This document shows, one piece after another, positions 597 through 63,502 of a stretch of 64,000 bases of DNA (positions are counted from its first letter, which is position 1; each line of letters opens with the position of its first letter). The notes beneath the pieces are model-generated. The model saw only the letters and a list, made by a program, of their open reading frames with translations, made no database searches and was not told where the DNA came from. The stretch spans positions 124,001-188,000 of the forward strand of contig NZ_PQVF01000008.1 in NCBI RefSeq assembly GCF_002920915.1, given 5' to 3'. This stretch comes from Solitalea longa. Lineage in GTDB: Bacteria; Bacteroidota; Bacteroidia; Sphingobacteriales; Sphingobacteriaceae. The position numbers and the translations under genes were made by a program.

Positions 597-3218
597 TTAC
601 TTTATCAGCTTCTGAATCTCATTCAACTTAATCAGCGCCTCCACCGGAGTCAACACGTTTACATCCAAATCAGCGAGTGAATCCCTGATCTTGATCAAAA
701 TCGGGTCGTCGAGCGAAAAGATATTCAATTGCATTTGGTCTGATTTCTTTATTTTTTTTACGCCGTTTCTGATACTTGCAGCTCCTTCACCCGAACTGCG
801 TTCGTCTTCCAACTTCTTCAACACTTCTTCGGCCTTGCGAACAACTTTTGGCGGCATCCCGGCCATACGGGCTACATGAATACCAAAACTATGTTCGCTA
901 CCTCCCGGAACTAGTTTGCGAAGAAATATCACTTTATTGTCGATCTCTTTAATGGAAACATTAAAGTTCTTGATCCGTTCAAATTCCCCTTCCATCTCAT
1001 TTAATTCATGATAATGGGTGGCAAATAAAGTTTTAGCCCTAGACTTAGGATCGTTATGAATATATTCGGCAATTGACCAGGCAATAGAAATACCGTCGTA
1101 GGTACTGGTACCGCGACCAATTTCATCTAGTAGTACTAAACTCCGGTTAGAAAGGTTATTCAAAATACTAGCCGTTTCATTCATCTCCACCATAAAGGTT
1201 GATTCGCCTGATGAAAGATTATCCGAAGCACCCACCCTTGTAAATATTTTATCGGTGATCCCTAACCTTGCTCCTTTGGCAGGAACAAAACTTCCTATTT
1301 GCGACATCAACACAATTAATGCTGTTTGACGAAGCAAAGCTGATTTACCCGCCATATTCGGACCGGTGATCATAATGATCTGTTGATTTTCATCATCCAG
1401 CAACACATCATTGGGAATATACTGCTCACCTATTGGCAAACTTTTTTCAATAACCGGATGGCGGCCAAGTTTTATGTCGATAACATTGTCATCCACCATT
1501 TCCGGACGACAATAGTTATTTTTTACTGCGGTAATTGCAAAGCTTAATAAAACATCCAATTGGGCAATTGCTAAAGCGTTTACCTGAATTGGTCGGATAT
1601 ATTCCGACATGCTCATCAATAAATCCGAATACAGCTTATTTTCAAGAGCAAAGATCTTTTCTTCAGCCCCTAGTATCTTTTCTTCGTACTCTTTTAATTC
1701 CGGAGTGATGTATCGCTCGGCATTAACCAAAGTTTGCTTGCGGATCCATTCAGTCGGAACCTTGTCCTTATGCGTATGTGTTACTTCTAAATAATAGCCA
1801 AAGACGTTATTAAAGGCGATTTTCAACGATGGAATGCCGGTAATTTCGCTTTCACGACGCTGCATATCCAGCAAATAATCTTTTCCGCTGAAAGCAATTT
1901 TACGCAACTGATCCAACTCCTCATGAACGCCCGGTGCGATAACACCTCCTTTTTGAATCAAAACCGGTGGTTCCTGATTCAGCTCCTGCTCAATTTTTTC
2001 TTTGATGAATTTGCAGGGGTTAAGCTGATCGGCAATCTTACAAAGACTATCCTGACCAGTACTTTCTGCAACAGTTTTAACCTCAGCAATTGCTGCCAAG
2101 GCCCTTCCCAACTGAACCAGTTCACGTGGATTGGCTTTCTGCAAGGCTACTTTCGAGATTAACCGTTCTAAATCGCCAATTGGTTTTAGCTTCGATTGAA
2201 GATCTGCTGATAATGTAGCATCACTTGTTAAATGCTGAACAACATTCAATCGTTCTTCAATCAATACTTTTTCCTTCAATGGCATCACCATCCATTTGCG
2301 AAGCAAACGGGCTCCCATTGGGGTATTGGTTTGATCAAGGATGGAAATTAATGGTGTTGCCCCTTCATTGGGCGAATAGATCAATTCGAGATTGCGAATG
2401 GTGAACCGATCCAGCCAAACGTAGCGATCTTCTTCTATTCTCGAAATTTGAGCAATGTGCTGCACGTTGCGATGTTCCGCTTCGAAAATATAATGCAAAC
2501 AGGCTCCAGCTGCGATAATGCCCTGAGGCAGATTCTCAATACCAAAACCTTTTAAAGAAACCGTTCCGAAATGTTTTAACAGGGTCTCATGTGCATAGTC
2601 AAAGCCAAAAACCCAATCATCAATGTTAAACGTGTAAAACTTATCGCCAAACTGACTTACAAAATCACGTGATTTTGACTTTGAAAAGATAACCTCCGAA
2701 GGTCGGAAGCTTTGCAGCAATTTATCGATATAATCGGCTTCGCCTTGCGCCGTTAAAAATTCTCCTGTAGAAATATCCAGCAAGGCAATTCCCAAAATCT
2801 CCTTATCAAAATGGACAGCCGCAAGGTAATTATTGGTCTTATTGTTAAGTATATTCTCGTTATAAGCCACACCCGGAGAAACCATTTCGGTCACTCCGCG
2901 CTTTACAATTGTTTTTACAGTTTTCGGGTCTTCAAGCTGATCACAAATAGCCACTCTTTGTCCTGCACGAACCAATTTTGGCAAATAAGTATCGAGCGAA
3001 TGATGGGGAAAGCCAGCTAATTCTATGTGTGAGGCTGAACCATTGGCACGTTTGGTAAGCGTAATACCTAATATTTCCGAAGCTTTTATTGCGTCTTCAC
3101 CGAAGGTTTCATAGAAATCACCTACGCGAAACAATAAAATTGCACCCGGATATTTACCTTTTATCTGGTTGTATTGCGCCATTAAAGGCGTTTCCTTACC
3201 GTCTTTTCCTTTTGCCAA
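597..3218 (-). CDS. mutS: DNA mismatch repair protein MutS
   Basis: MutS recognises mispaired or looped DNA and starts methyl-independent or methyl-directed mismatch repair with MutL. At 873 aa it is close to the usual MutS1 length. The mismatch-contacting F-x-E motif is present (F35, Y36, E37 in [11 protein letters not shown]). The ATPase domain has Walker A GPNMAGKS at about residues 618-625 and Walker [12 protein letters not shown] at about 695-705. A C-terminal HTH-type tail follows [12 protein letters not shown]. The start codon is TTG at 3216-3218. It gives the MAKGK N-terminus I expect for Bacteroidota MutS, while the next ATG is 12 codons later and would trim the region just before the mismatch domain. 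The gene stands alone, facing the M28 gene across a terminator. Confidence 0.97.
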
Positions 3219-3299
3219 GTGTTTTTAATTTAAGACAGCGAAAATAAGCAGGTTTAACTGCTTAGACAACATTGAGTTTTTCACAATTTGTTATAAACG

Positions 3300-3384
3300 G
3301 TTGCCAGTAGTCTGTGGACAGTCTGCAATCAACAGTACACAGTCGGCGATCGGCTGTAGACAGTCGGCAGTAGGCAGTTAGATG
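3300..3384 (+). repeat. Degenerate heptamer array, left arm (unit NNGGCAG / TNGNCAG)
   Basis: Twelve consecutive 7-nt units fit from 3301 to 3384, for example tcggcag, taggcag, tagacag, tacacag, with CAG recurring at the end of most units. The outer end reads GTTGCCAGT (3300-3308). A matching array in inverted orientation lies at 3821-3878, with a broken four-helix-bundle gene between them. Confidence 0.8.
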
Positions 3385-3402
3385 TAAGCACCTGATAATT
3401 CT

Positions 3403-3761
3403 TTAAGAGAATTTCTCAGGGTTTCTTATCATAAAGACTATCAACCTACCTGTTTCTAAGCATTTTGAATTTAATCTCATGAATTCATCATCGCCGATAT
3501 AACAACATGCCTTTGCAAACTCAAGCCATCCCTGAGTTTCACTATTTTCCTTATCGGCGTCAGTAAGTTTACTTACAAAATGATTGGTATATTTTCGTTT
3601 TCTATAAGCCTCAATAATATTAATATTGGTAGATCGTGAATTTCTTCTGATTTGATCTGTTAAACTATAAATCTCTTCTTTTGGAAAGTTCTTAAATAAA
3701 ATACATCCATTGCCAAATCAAATGACGTTTTATAAACTGCCAATTCTTTATATTTTCCCAT
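3403..3761 (-). pseudogene. Four-helix-bundle protein (23S rRNA intervening-sequence protein family), frameshifted
   Basis: Read from ATG at 3761, the frame gives MGKYKELAVYKTSFDLAM, which matches the start of the TIGR02436/S23 four-helix-bundle family. It then breaks near 3691-3700: the original frame stops soon after. The +1 frame continues with the family's conserved middle (FPKEEIYSLTDQIRRNSRS, NIIEAYRKRKY, FVSKLTDADKENSETQ, WLEFAKACCYI) and ends in IRNPEKFS with a stop at 3403-3405. Together the two frames recover a nearly full-length family member of about 119 codons. The break lies in a TTTAAGAAC stretch and fits loss of one or a few bases. Function in the family is unknown; relatives sit inside rRNA insertions or accompany diversity-generating retroelements (Avd). 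Confidence 0.85.
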
Positions 3762-3820
3762 AGGTAATAAGTAAGATGATATACTAGTTAATTTACTGAA
3801 TTCCGAAAACATTACAACGT

Positions 3821-3878
3821 ACTGCCAGTTGGTAGCCACTGACTGGAGACTGGAGACTGCAGACTGCAGACTGCCAAC
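3821..3878 (-). repeat. Degenerate heptamer array, right arm, inverted relative to the left arm
   Basis: Eight 7-nt units run from 3821 (actgcca, actggag twice, actgcag twice, actgcca). On the minus strand they read NNGCAGT, the same motif as the left array at 3300-3384. The outer end is ACTGCCAAC (3870-3878), the reverse complement of GTTGGCAGT, which matches the left arm's end in 8 of 9 positions. Confidence 0.8.
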
Positions 3879-3908
3879 TATTTGTCGGAAATTATTATTT
3901 TCGGCGCC

Positions 3909-4766
3909 ATGAAATTTTTTCACTTTGCGCTTATAATTATTTCTTTAGGTATGGCTGCTTGCTCTTCAAATCAAGAAGATAAGGATGCTTCCTTTAGAAA
4001 AACGTTGAATAACAATTGGATTGAAATTAAACGCTGTAATTTAAAAGGCGGTTTATTCAGTACCTACGGTGAACGTTACAAGGCCGACTGGTTGATGTTT
4101 ATTGACGAAAATGGTTATGCGACCGTTAAAACACCAAAAGATTATTACCGTAATATTTTCGTTCGCCCAGACTCAATTATGAAATGGGATAAGTACAAAT
4201 ACCGTATCATCAAAATTAAAACCGATACGCTTGTGCTTGAATATATTCCAAACAGAGGTGATTCGATCAATAAACCCCATCACCTAATGTTTGTTAGTGA
4301 AAAAACATTTAAGAAAACCGATAAAGAAACCTTAGCTGGTCTTCTAACGCTTACTAAAAATGATACCCTGTTTTTGAAAAAGTTAAGTGATTCCTGTAAA
4401 AGATCACCCAACTACTTTTTTTCAGCCGAAAAACAGCCAATAGCCAGATCACTGGATGGATTTACCAAAATTGATACCGCTGTTTCAGATGATGGACGTA
4501 TGGAATTTAAAATCACCGAATACAATGCCGATGTTAAAAATCAACATTTGTACTCAGGTAAGTTCATTGTAAGAGAAAATGGCCAGATCGGTTCTTTTGA
4601 TGTGGGTTTAATGGCTTGGGGAGGCGAAGAAATTTTACCAGCCACTTATAAGTATATTAAGCACTTTGTTGAAAACAAGATTAAGTTTGAACCCGGAACT
4701 ACCTTGGGTGCTCGGATAAACACTTATGTTTATTTTACGTTCACAAGAACACCTGATCTTCCGTAG
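3909..4766 (+). CDS. Putative lipoprotein of unknown function
   Basis: I do not recognise the family. The protein (285 aa from the ATG at 3909) starts with a Lys, a hydrophobic stretch (FHFALIIISLGMAA) and a Cys at about residue 18, followed by SSNQEDKD. This is a plausible lipoprotein signal with lipobox GMAAC, so the mature protein is probably anchored in the outer or inner membrane. The rest is mixed alpha/beta with many Lys and Asp and no transmembrane segment. An upstream in-frame ATG at 3882 would place charged residues ahead of the signal and lies next to the repeat array, so I chose 3909. The gene faces the dioxygenase gene with a 23-bp gap. Confidence 0.7.
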   Translation: MKFFHFALIIISLGMAACSSNQEDKDASFRKTLNNNWIEIKRCNLKGGLFSTYGERYKADWLMFIDENGYATVKTPKDYYRNIFVRPDSIMKWDKYKYRIIKIKTDTLVLEYIPNRGDSINKPHHLMFVSEKTFKKTDKETLAGLLTLTKNDTLFLKKLSDSCKRSPNYFFSAEKQPIARSLDGFTKIDTAVSDDGRMEFKITEYNADVKNQHLYSGKFIVRENGQIGSFDVGLMAWGGEEILPATYKYIKHFVENKIKFEPGTTLGARINTYVYFTFTRTPDLP

Positions 4767-5675: not shown

Positions 5676-5758
5676 AAATCTCAAATCTCAAATCTCAAAT
5701 CTCAAATCTCAAATCTCAAATCTCAAATCTCAAATCTCAAATCTCAAATCTCAAATCT
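5676..5758 (+). repeat. Perfect heptamer tandem array (AAATCTC), about 11.9 copies
   Basis: The 7-mer AAATCTC repeats without a mismatch over 83 nt, ending 3 nt before the TAnnTTTG promoter box of the TrmH-type gene. Perfect identity suggests recent expansion. A copy-number change here would alter only DNA upstream of the -7 box, including the -33 region. Confidence 0.97.
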
Positions 5759-61250: not shown

Positions 61251-62579
61251 ATGTCAATTGATATCCCAGAAACTAATTTCCCAAGAGTTGTAATTATTGG
61301 TGGCGGATTTGGCGGTATTCAGGCTGCTAAAAAACTAAACAACAAAGAAGTACAGGTAATTATGATCGACCGGCACAATTACCATACTTTTCAACCCCTA
61401 CTCTATCAGGTGGCTACCGGTGGTTTAGAACCCGACTCCATTGCTCACCCACTACGTAAGATCTTCAAAAATCAAAAGAACTTTATATTCCGAGTGGCGG
61501 AAGCGCAGGAAGTTATTCCAGATAGAAAGGTACTGAAAACCAATATTGGCGAAATCCATTATGATTACCTGGTAATCGCTACAGGTTCAAGTTCTAATTA
61601 CTTTGGAATGAAAGACCTGGAAGATAACACCATGCCAATGAAAACGATTCCGGAAGCTTTGGATATGCGCAGTTTGGTTTTACAAAACCTCGAAAGTGCA
61701 TTACTAACCGACAGTATAAATGAGCAGGAAGCCTACATGAACTTTGTGGTGGTTGGTGGCGGACCAACAGGGGTTGAAACTGCAGGAGCACTAGCAGAAC
61801 TTAAAAACCATGTATTGCCGCATGACTATCCTGAGTTAGACATACGACGCATGCAAATTAACTTGATTGAAGGTGGAGATCGTTTACTTGGAGCGATGTC
61901 GGTTCAGGCTTCAGAAAAATCAGCTGATTTCTTGAAAAGCATGGGTGTAAACGTTCGTTTGAATGAACGTGTATTAAGTTTTGATGGTGAAAGAGTGCAA
62001 TTAGGCAGCGGAAAAGCACTTGAAACAAAAGTGGTCATCTGGTCGGCTGGAGTTAAAGGCGTTACCTTACCCGGAATAAACAAAGAGGTGATTGTTGGTG
62101 GCAATCGATTTAAAGTAAATGTATTTAACCAGATTGAAGGCTACGATGACATTTTTGCGCTTGGCGATGTGGCGGCAATGATCACCGATGAGTTTCCTAA
62201 AGGTCACCCGGGAGTTGCCCCTGCAGCGATACAACAAGGTCGACTATTTGCCAAAAACATTATTAAAAAGATAAACGATATTCCCATGGAGCCCTTTAAA
62301 TACTTTGACAAAGGCTCAATGGCTACCGTTGGCAGAAACCGCGCAGTGGTTGATATGGGATTTATTCGTTTCCAGGGAACATTTGCCTGGTTTGTATGGA
62401 TGTTTGTTCATTTGATGACTTTAGTTGGTTTCCGTAACCGGGTGGTGGTTTTTGTGAATTGGGTTTGGAGTTATTTCAGTTACGACCGGGGCACGCGATT
62501 GATCATCAGAAGGTTTGAAAAAGAAGCAGCTCCATCCGCAGTAGACAGTCGGCATTACGCAGTAGATAGTCAGCATTAG
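61251..62579 (+). CDS. ndh: Type II NADH:quinone oxidoreductase (NDH-2)
   Basis: A peripheral-membrane flavoenzyme passing electrons from NADH to menaquinone without proton pumping. The FAD motif is VIIGGGFGGIQAAKKL (about residues 14-29), the NADH motif is VVVGGGPTGVETAGALAEL (about 166-184), and the second FAD motif is DIFALGDVAAM. The C-terminal membrane-binding region (FAWFVWMFVHLMTLVGF, then NWVWSYF) is intact. The last ~14 residues (SAVDSRHYAVDSQH) are encoded by heptamer repeat DNA and so are probably an acquired tail. 442 aa in total. Confidence 0.93.
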   Translation: MSIDIPETNFPRVVIIGGGFGGIQAAKKLNNKEVQVIMIDRHNYHTFQPLLYQVATGGLEPDSIAHPLRKIFKNQKNFIFRVAEAQEVIPDRKVLKTNIGEIHYDYLVIATGSSSNYFGMKDLEDNTMPMKTIPEALDMRSLVLQNLESALLTDSINEQEAYMNFVVVGGGPTGVETAGALAELKNHVLPHDYPELDIRRMQINLIEGGDRLLGAMSVQASEKSADFLKSMGVNVRLNERVLSFDGERVQLGSGKALETKVVIWSAGVKGVTLPGINKEVIVGGNRFKVNVFNQIEGYDDIFALGDVAAMITDEFPKGHPGVAPAAIQQGRLFAKNIIKKINDIPMEPFKYFDKGSMATVGRNRAVVDMGFIRFQGTFAWFVWMFVHLMTLVGFRNRVVVFVNWVWSYFSYDRGTRLIIRRFEKEAAPSAVDSRHYAVDSQH

Positions 62580-62632
62580 GCAGACTGAGTATTGGAGACT
62601 GGAGAATGGAGACTGGGAACTAAAGACGATTG
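62539..62632 (+). repeat. Degenerate heptamer array overlapping the 3' end of ndh
   Basis: About thirteen units of 7 nt (gcagtag, acagtcg, gcattac, gcagtag, atagtca, gcattag, gcagact, ggagact and so on). The first six form two 21-nt copies. The motif resembles the CAG-rich heptamers flanking the broken four-helix-bundle gene at 3.3-3.9 kb. Confidence 0.8.
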
Positions 62633-62641
62633 ACTACAAAC

Positions 62642-63502
62642 ATGAGCAACACTCCTTTAAAATTAATAGAATGCCCTCGTGATGCGATGCAGGGAATTGA
62701 GGAATTTATTCCTACTAAATTAAAAGCTGAATATATTAACAAACTGTTGAAGGTTGGATTCGATACCATTGACTTCGGCAGTTTTGTTTCACCTAAAGCG
62801 ATTCCTCAGATGAAAGATACTCGTGAGGTGCTGAAATTGCTCGATCTAAGTTCTACCCGATCAAAACTATTGGCGATAATTGCCAATTTAAGAGGCGCTG
62901 AAGAAGCCGTTCTCCATCCGGAGATCACTTACCTCGGATTTCCATTTTCGATCTCAGAAACATTCCAACAACGAAATACAAACAGTTCTATAGCTGAAGC
63001 CTTTGATACCGTTCAGCAAATTCAATCGCTTTGTATAAAAAATAGTAAAGAACTTGTCATTTACATCTCCATGGGCTTTGGTAATCCATATGGCGATGAA
63101 TGGGACGCCGACATTCTTTCTAAATGGGTGAAAGAAATGAGCCGTATTGGGGTGAAAATTATAGCCTTATCGGATACTATCGGTGTTTCCAATCCCCAAA
63201 ACATTGACTATCTGTTTAAAAACGTAACGAATGACCACCCTAAAATAGAATTAGGCGTTCACCTCCACTCTACCCCGACTACACGATTGGAAAAAATCGA
63301 TGCAGCCTGGCAAGCCGGTTGCCGAAGATTTGATTCAGCATTAAAGGGATATGGAGGCTGCCCGATGGCCAAAGACGAGCTCACAGGAAATATCTCCACT
63401 GAAAGCATACTTTCCTACTTGAATGACCAACAAATCAATACCGGGCTTAATATGGATTATTGGACAGAGGCTATGGAGTTCTCCAATCATATCTTTCATT
63501 AA
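62642..63502 (+). CDS. HMG-CoA lyase-like enzyme (HMGL family)
   Basis: A 286-aa TIM-barrel enzyme from the ATG at 62642. The N-terminal motif ECPRDAMQG corresponds to the E-x-x-x-R-D-G-x-Q motif of HMG-CoA lyase, with Arg-Asp kept. The metal His pair is GVHLHST, and the catalytic loop is ALKGYGGCPMAKDELTGN with the GGCP Cys. HMG-CoA lyase, used in leucine breakdown, is the likeliest role; related hydroxyacyl lyases are possible. No other leucine catabolism genes are adjacent. The upstream repeat array directly precedes the start. Confidence 0.85.
   Translation: MSNTPLKLIECPRDAMQGIEEFIPTKLKAEYINKLLKVGFDTIDFGSFVSPKAIPQMKDTREVLKLLDLSSTRSKLLAIIANLRGAEEAVLHPEITYLGFPFSISETFQQRNTNSSIAEAFDTVQQIQSLCIKNSKELVIYISMGFGNPYGDEWDADILSKWVKEMSRIGVKIIALSDTIGVSNPQNIDYLFKNVTNDHPKIELGVHLHSTPTTRLEKIDAAWQAGCRRFDSALKGYGGCPMAKDELTGNISTESILSYLNDQQINTGLNMDYWTEAMEFSNHIFH

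Follow-up and report, generated by a model that had tools for sequence, protein, structure and literature searches.

A frameshifted IVP gene between inverted heptad arms upstream of mutS: a likely copy of a transposase-free mobile element

Upstream of mutS (597-3218, minus strand) in the window, the stretch of 64,000 nucleotides of Solitalea longa DNA analysed here, a broken gene sits between two short arrays of 7-nt units in opposite orientation. What is this unit, and does it spread as one? The names of the host genes that adjoin this and similar units (mutS, argC, argD, murE, mraY and dxr) are readings of the sequence rather than results of a family search. The array at 3300-3384, with CAGT-containing units on the plus strand, lies on the 3' side of the minus-strand gene and matches itself at a lag of 7 nt in 46 of 78 positions (shuffle mean 19.3, p≤5e-5). 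The array at 3821-3878, with GACTGCA units on the plus strand, lies on the 5' side and does so in 34 of 51 positions (shuffle mean 12.5, p≤5e-5). The two arrays pair with a score of 50 in inverted and 32 in direct orientation, and the inverted pairing has a shuffle p of 0.0003 under soft and 0.002 under strict scoring. The opposed 7-nt arrays described in an earlier, sequence-only reading of this DNA are thus real, and their outer ends, GTTGCCAGT and GTTGGCAGT, are indeed alike in 8 of 9 positions.

The enclosed gene (3403-3761, minus strand) encodes a four-helix-bundle protein of the 23S_rRNA_IVP family (hereafter IVP), relatives of which have solved structures (2gsc and 2rld). Its frame at 3421-3699 matches PF05635 with an E-value of 1.6e-20 (73.7 bits against a cut-off of 33.8), and the gene matches TIGR02436 with 73.4 bits against a cut-off of 24; matches of the fragment to bAvd (PF22296) stay below cut-off. 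The N-terminal piece sits in a different frame, which places a frameshift near 3699, and the translations suggest a start at about 3761 and a stop at 3403-3405. The S23/Avd-like gene split over two frames had thus been recognized correctly. That the copy is dead, as also claimed, holds for the protein in view of the frameshift, but not for the arms, on which factors supplied in trans could still act. No match was found among phages for the L001 protein. An Rfam scan of 3000-4200 gave no match at E≤1, so the window copy lies outside an rRNA gene; it has two of the features by which 23S rRNA intervening sequences are recognized, namely complementary inverted ends and an S23p/IVP open reading frame, here frameshifted. 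In the 300-nt test of matched against mismatched flanks, the window pair scores 23 and ranks 14th of 99 in its own row. By itself it is a moderate case, and the claim of generality is carried by other loci.

TIGR02436 gave 129 matches in 26 of the 31 genomes searched, with seven places in the genome of the window (G000), 10, 5 and 0 matches in the congeners G001, G002 and G003, respectively, and none in G008. For 99 of these matches, in which one G014 gene is counted twice as two pieces, the 300-nt upstream flank was aligned to the reverse complement of the downstream flank, with mismatched pairs as background. The median score is 31 for matched and 18 for mismatched pairs. Sixty of the 99 loci reach the 99th percentile of the mismatched pairs (30) and 78 the 95th (25), compared to 12 that reach the 99th percentile in direct orientation. 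The same score of 30 is reached by 5 of 132 neighbouring genes of the same loci, including one of the PDDEXK_3 family, and in the window by 1 of 54 genes. Inverted 7-nt arrays are therefore far commoner at TIGR02436 genes than at others (60/99 against 5/132), in a comparison that the sequence-only reading had proposed. The remaining 39 of the 99 loci score below the 99th percentile, likely through decay of the arms. A further set of 80 loci was taken from named GTDB genomes, of which 79 were scored, one flank being short. Among these, the Bacteroidota loci at or above their own 99th percentile (30) number 21 of 42. For the loci of other phyla that percentile is 35.7, which 15 of 37 reach, while 23 of the 37 reach 30. 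Groups with armed loci include Chloroflexota, Poribacteria, Planctomycetota, Acidobacteria, Verrucomicrobia, Elusimicrobia and Proteobacteria. Rfam gave no match at the gathering score in 20 of the 37 scored non-Bacteroidota loci, and these 20 therefore have no rRNA context. An IVP gene between inverted 7-nt arms is a general pattern, not one peculiar to the window. Separately, some IVP loci in G019 and G026 show strong flank matches in direct orientation, with scores up to 195, as do control genes in L085 and L115 (103 and 100).

Further analysis of the arms revealed a common grammar. Of 78 armed IVP loci, 58 have their best lag at 7, 14 or 21, compared to 3 of 22 PDDEXK_3 and 3 of 15 Y1_Tnp loci among the matches listed; the 7-nt period is special to IVP genes. 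For 64 upstream arms, whose unit leans to AGT, the gain of a model with period 7 is 347 log units, compared to about 100 when the sequences are shuffled, while on the same arms periods of 6 and 9 gain nothing and a period of 8 gains little above shuffles. The median aligned arm is 32.5 nt long. Arms beat shuffles of their unit order in 46 of 78 loci, and the two arms of a locus are therefore, for the most part, colinear inverted copies of each other rather than mere arrays of like units. They differ from locus to locus, and the scored IVP loci have no fixed terminal repeat sequence running through the family. At ten shared sites, arms within a locus pair with a score of at least 25 in 27 of 38 cases, compared to 31 of 144 for arms from different genomes at the same sites; both arms of a locus therefore change together. 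The PDDEXK_3 (GxxExxY) genes, e.g. L142 (G000:C12:232998) and L135 (G001:C39:131666) among the loci L127-L156, also have inverted flanks. From 30 matches listed, 29 were left after one short flank, and among these 20 score at least 30 and 11 lie over their own 99th percentile. Their flank units, CACAGAG and CGCAAAG by eye, are without a 7-nt period.

Comparison of sites and lineages shows that the arms travel to new sites with the gene lineage. At different sites, 20 of 105 pairs of loci with a protein identity of at least 0.5 reach an arm cross score of 22, compared to 4 of 105 in the wrong orientation, and at identities below 0.3 the numbers are 29 and 13 of 2672. Likeness of the arms at different sites rises with protein identity (Wilcoxon p 8e-9, a guide value since the pairs are not independent). 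Armed units can also be inherited in place: an IVP gene occupies the argC|argD site in nine genomes of eight genera, and several same-site copies group together in the tree. The most conserved residues of the protein are polar, with E71 in 100%, Q33 in 98%, and S40 and E47 in 95% of the alignment rows, followed by R36 (89%) and N44 (88%).

At individual host sites, gene and arms are present or absent together. The sequence-only reading had proposed to look for an empty mutS site in relatives. The site is empty in G002 and G003, which have neither arms nor gene, and in G001 the arms still enclose a remnant of about 75 nt from around the 3' end of the gene. This remnant is inverted relative to G000 (inverted score 76, direct score 20, ≤33 in 500 shuffles), by which the G001 unit has been both flipped and deleted. 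In G003, the lipoprotein-like gene adjoining mutS is duplicated, by eye (L039). At another site common to G000 and G001, with the flanks as reference, the IVP gene of one genome is reversed relative to that of the other; the segment between the arms can thus flip. The murE|mraY site carries an IVP gene in G000, in G014 (in two pieces) and in G016; in 26 of the 30 loci taken, the upstream open reading frame ends at most 47 nt from mraY, and in G002 133 nt from it. No obvious replaced hairpin was seen by eye at this site in the empty congeners. The upstream arm there resembles, by eye, the murE end of the empty G003, as if the arm had been seeded from its target; we do not claim such seeding, because G016 has a different unit at the same site. 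At a further site, X|dxr, the occupant changes from genome to genome: an IVP gene in G000, a PDDEXK_3 gene between different arms in G001, a short remnant of a PDDEXK_3 gene in G002, and neither of the two in G003. Unrelated small genes, here IVP and PDDEXK_3, hence alternate at some sites.

An exact view of an insertion comes from a plasmid. IVP matches occur in 23 plasmid records, and in the eight of them analysed here the inverted flank scores are 62, 57, 56, 47, 29, 21, 19 and 16, three of the eight thus scoring at most 21. One of these records, AZO_p2 of Azospirillum lipoferum 4B, holds an IVP copy (L441) inside a 23S rRNA gene (RF02541, 2529 bits), with heptad arms identical in 31 of 36 positions and a lag-7 match in 19 of 29 (p 2e-4). 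Another 23S copy on AZO_p1 of the same strain is empty. Between flanks of 300 nt that are identical at 300 and 289 positions, 469 nt stand in place of the 16 nt GTGATCTTATGATCAC, a perfect 6-bp hairpin of the empty copy, and the insert begins and finishes with the outer ends of the arms. By this alignment the unit has replaced exactly one host hairpin. It is the one exact occupied/empty pair found, distinct from the window copy, and it has no target duplication. The sequence-only reading had found no convincing target-site duplication at the window locus either, for which the replacement of a host hairpin is the likely reason. Because an armed copy replaced a 23S hairpin in this strain, we read rRNA intervening sequences and intergenic IVP genes as probable members of one element family.

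Arrays and hairpins without a gene are spread through the same genomes, some with the arms of resident elements. In samples of 0.4 Mb, we counted 4 period-7 arrays in G000, 13 in G002, 1 in G003 and 0 in G008, compared to 0 or 1 array at lags that are not a multiple of 7; the contrast of array density with IVP count covers these four genomes. Of the 17 arrays in G000 and G002, 12 are accompanied by an inverted partner at a distance of about 1 to 291 nt, and none of the 17 has an IVP or PDDEXK_3 gene within 900 nt. In G002, the match of 8 of 13 gene-less arrays to resident IVP arms exceeds that to 94% or more of random foreign sets. In G000 this holds for one of six, and the other five have no specific match to resident arms. 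The one in G000 is the gene-less copy of both arms at 62531-62650 of the window (plus strand), with a score of 47 to an arm of the 3300-3878 element that none of 100 random foreign-locus sets equals. When it was searched against four genomes, its best matches in G000, besides itself, were the two arms of that element, at 3349-3390 (84% identity, E 4.6e-4) and 3844-3866 (91%, E 0.039). The next match (E 0.07), which by eye falls in a coding region, follows the weaker arm closely. Its own halves pair weakly (score 16, with 3.5% of shuffles as high). This copy is probably an internal-deletion, MITE-like derivative of the 3300-3878 element. The same site in G001 and G002 holds another related hairpin pair, with scores of 31 and 38 that none of the shuffles reached; in G003 the site shows nothing clear. 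Altogether, the existence of gene-less arm copies and of related genes that share arms at different sites supports the earlier suggestion that gene and arms spread as a unit.

Hairpins of this kind differ among the congeners. A G002 hairpin of the TCCATGG family yields 66 aligned pieces in G002, 30 in G001, 9 in G000 and 2 in G003, counts of pieces and not of elements, because the unit is partly self-complementary and one arm can give two pieces. By eye, one G002 hairpin has no counterpart at the corresponding site in G000, G001 and G003, and a terminator-like hairpin absent from G002 stands at that site in G000 and G001. Another hairpin is common to all four congeners, again by eye, and G003, which has no IVP gene, keeps old hairpins, by eye, and one array. 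The window also holds a perfect direct array, AAATCTC x12 (5676-5758), with neither an inverted partner nor an IVP gene nearby.

These results provide insights into the nature of the locus. We consider it likely that the finding in the window is one broken-gene copy of a mobile element without a transposase, made of a single IVP gene and two inverted heptad arms, and we hold with good confidence that such IVP elements form a mobile family. The units of IVP gene and arms carry no recognisable transposase gene. As to the mechanism, we tentatively put forward, as a possibility that falls somewhat short of even chances, a replacement of hairpins in which the IVP protein itself acts. The unit would spread as a DNA hairpin, either by replacing a hairpin or palindrome already present or by being copied into one, without target duplication, and a pentameric IVP protein would bind the heptad arms and promote this replacement; the Xanthomonas relative is described as a homopentamer (PMC4990558). 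Flipping and copying between the arms would keep them alike, slippage would make the 7-nt arrays, and the rRNA intervening sequence would be the rRNA-inserted form of the same element. The IVP protein could also be a passenger rather than the actor.

A bolder version, which we regard as unlikely, takes the IVP rings to be a novel type of mobility protein, without cleavage chemistry of a known sort, that reads the 7-nt step and anneals heptad hairpins to, or swaps them into, other hairpins at replication forks. Five subunits at 7 nt each would span 35 nt, close to the median aligned arm, and the ring would hold the heptad hairpins as single strands. If true, this would account at once for transposase-free spread, flipping, the likeness of the arms and genome-wide hairpin families, and also for why host hairpins are replaced and how 23S rRNA intervening sequences arose. 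We know of no explanation for how these sequences move.

Could the arms act as RNA instead? In such a case, a stem in the transcript would isolate or process a passenger gene within an operon, and selection on RNA pairing would keep the arms complementary. Consistent with this, 78 of 96 IVP genes lie between open reading frames of the same direction, compared to 76 of 131 control frames, one copy (L441) lies inside a 23S rRNA gene, and RNase III is reported to cut the stem of the Coxiella intervening sequence in vitro (PMC4990558). However, contrary to what selection on RNA pairing predicts, the arm mismatches of 77 loci show no excess of G.U over A.C (118 and 131, p 0.45), so nothing in them points to RNA-level selection, and the gene-less arrays that share resident arms would require a spreading process as well. 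We therefore regard the RNA account as quite improbable.

It is distinctly improbable, too, that an unrelated transposase moves the unit in trans as a conventional inverted-repeat transposon or MITE, with the IVP gene as cargo. Gene-less and gene-bearing copies do share arms, and genes of Y1_Tnp, the transposase family searched, occur in 20 of the 31 genomes. However, the arms vary by locus and retain mainly the 7-nt period, the 23S pair shows an exact 16-nt replacement without target duplication, and G001, with 10 IVP matches, has no Y1_Tnp match. Y1_Tnp was sampled like PDDEXK_3, with 29 of 30 listed matches left after one short flank. As a candidate mover it was rejected since its arm grammar differs, the flanking repeats having a 7-nt period in 3 of 15 loci among the matches listed. 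Four Y1_Tnp genes (L157, L163, L173 and L186) have long inverted flanks that are REP-like in look.

An account without any mobility, in which slippage in intergenic DNA lengthens the heptad arrays and palindrome correction makes them pair while IVP genes persist by vertical descent, is very improbable and already largely contradicted. Arrays without an inverted partner, such as the one at 5676-5758, and the hairpin site common to the four congeners would suit it, but presence and absence at mutS and murE|mraY, the match of the gene-less 62531-62650 to both arms of the 3300-3878 element, the arms shared by related genes at unrelated sites and the same-strain 23S replacement all speak against it. 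A reverse transcriptase as the source of mobility, on the model of Avd in diversity-generating retroelements, is barely conceivable: IVP and bAvd have related folds (PF22296 below cut-off; homology in PMC10053308), yet RVT_1 has no match in G000, G001 and G002, with their 7, 10 and 5 IVP matches, and 16 in G003, which has none, so this route is refuted for these hosts unless a reverse transcriptase outside RVT_1 acts. Reverse transcription thus seems not to be needed for the spread. Some of the 16 RVT_1 matches of G003 have near-identical scores.

The mobile element proposed here, a single IVP gene with two inverted heptad arms, resembles several known systems but differs from each. The protein family and the rRNA intervening sequences are already known. 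In REPIN/RAYT systems, a Y1 transposase parent gene is accompanied by many gene-less palindromic copies of related sequence per genome. The present family likewise has a gene-bearing copy and dispersed gene-less ones, but lacks a Y1 transposase, its parent gene being PF05635, and its arms are 7-nt-periodic and variable by locus. MITEs and insertion sequences with terminal inverted repeats have inverted ends and gene-less copies, as has the IVP element, which differs in having neither a transposase gene nor a fixed end sequence and, in the exact 23S pair, no target duplication. The 23S rRNA intervening sequences of Coxiella and Leptospira carry a gene of the same family, S23p/IVP, inside complementary ends, and there the tip of a native rRNA hairpin is described as replaced by the element (PMC4990558), as is seen here in L441. 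By contrast, the window copy lies between protein genes, and the 7-nt arm grammar, the gene-less derivatives and the operon sites are not described in the parts of that source at hand. The same 2016 paper states that S23/IVP proteins have no known function, and that rRNA intervening sequences have been called selfish or parasitic and are thought to spread by horizontal transfer (PMC4990558). Bordetella Avd of the diversity-generating retroelements is a distant homologue in fold (PMC10053308; PF22296 below cut-off); unlike that system, the G000 host has no RVT_1 reverse transcriptase. Complementary 7-nt repeats form a stem, as IVP arms may, in P6b of the Nostoc trnL intron (PMC4476775), and cyanobacterial TAACTGA repeats share the 7-nt unit (PMC4679880). 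The portions of these two papers at hand hold no link to IVP genes, and the main text of the second (PMC4679880) makes no mention of S23 or four helix.

Among open-licence PMC papers, judged by their listings, we found none that links IVP genes to 7-nt inverted arrays, nor any that describes the 7-nt grammar, the copies in operons, those without a gene or the unity with the rRNA form. One armed element that unites IVP genes with rRNA intervening sequences would give the IVP protein a likely role, and the gene-less derivatives together with the same-strain occupied/empty pair make the question of mobility directly testable. The element would also be one source of the unexplained 7-nt repeats in bacterial intergenic DNA. 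Moreover, it may explain IVP genes in CRISPR operons without invoking any CRISPR function. In cyanobacteria, such genes stand as cas6|IVP|cas4 twice and as cas10|IVP|cmr3 once (L437, L440 and L443), with inverted arms scoring 62, 57 and a weaker 29, and are probably passengers there. A row of units was seen in L121 (G027:C2:45163-50602), where three IVP genes and one PDDEXK_3 gene follow one another about 1.7 kb apart, with inverted flank scores of 63, 27 and 30 for the IVP genes and 49 for the PDDEXK_3 gene.
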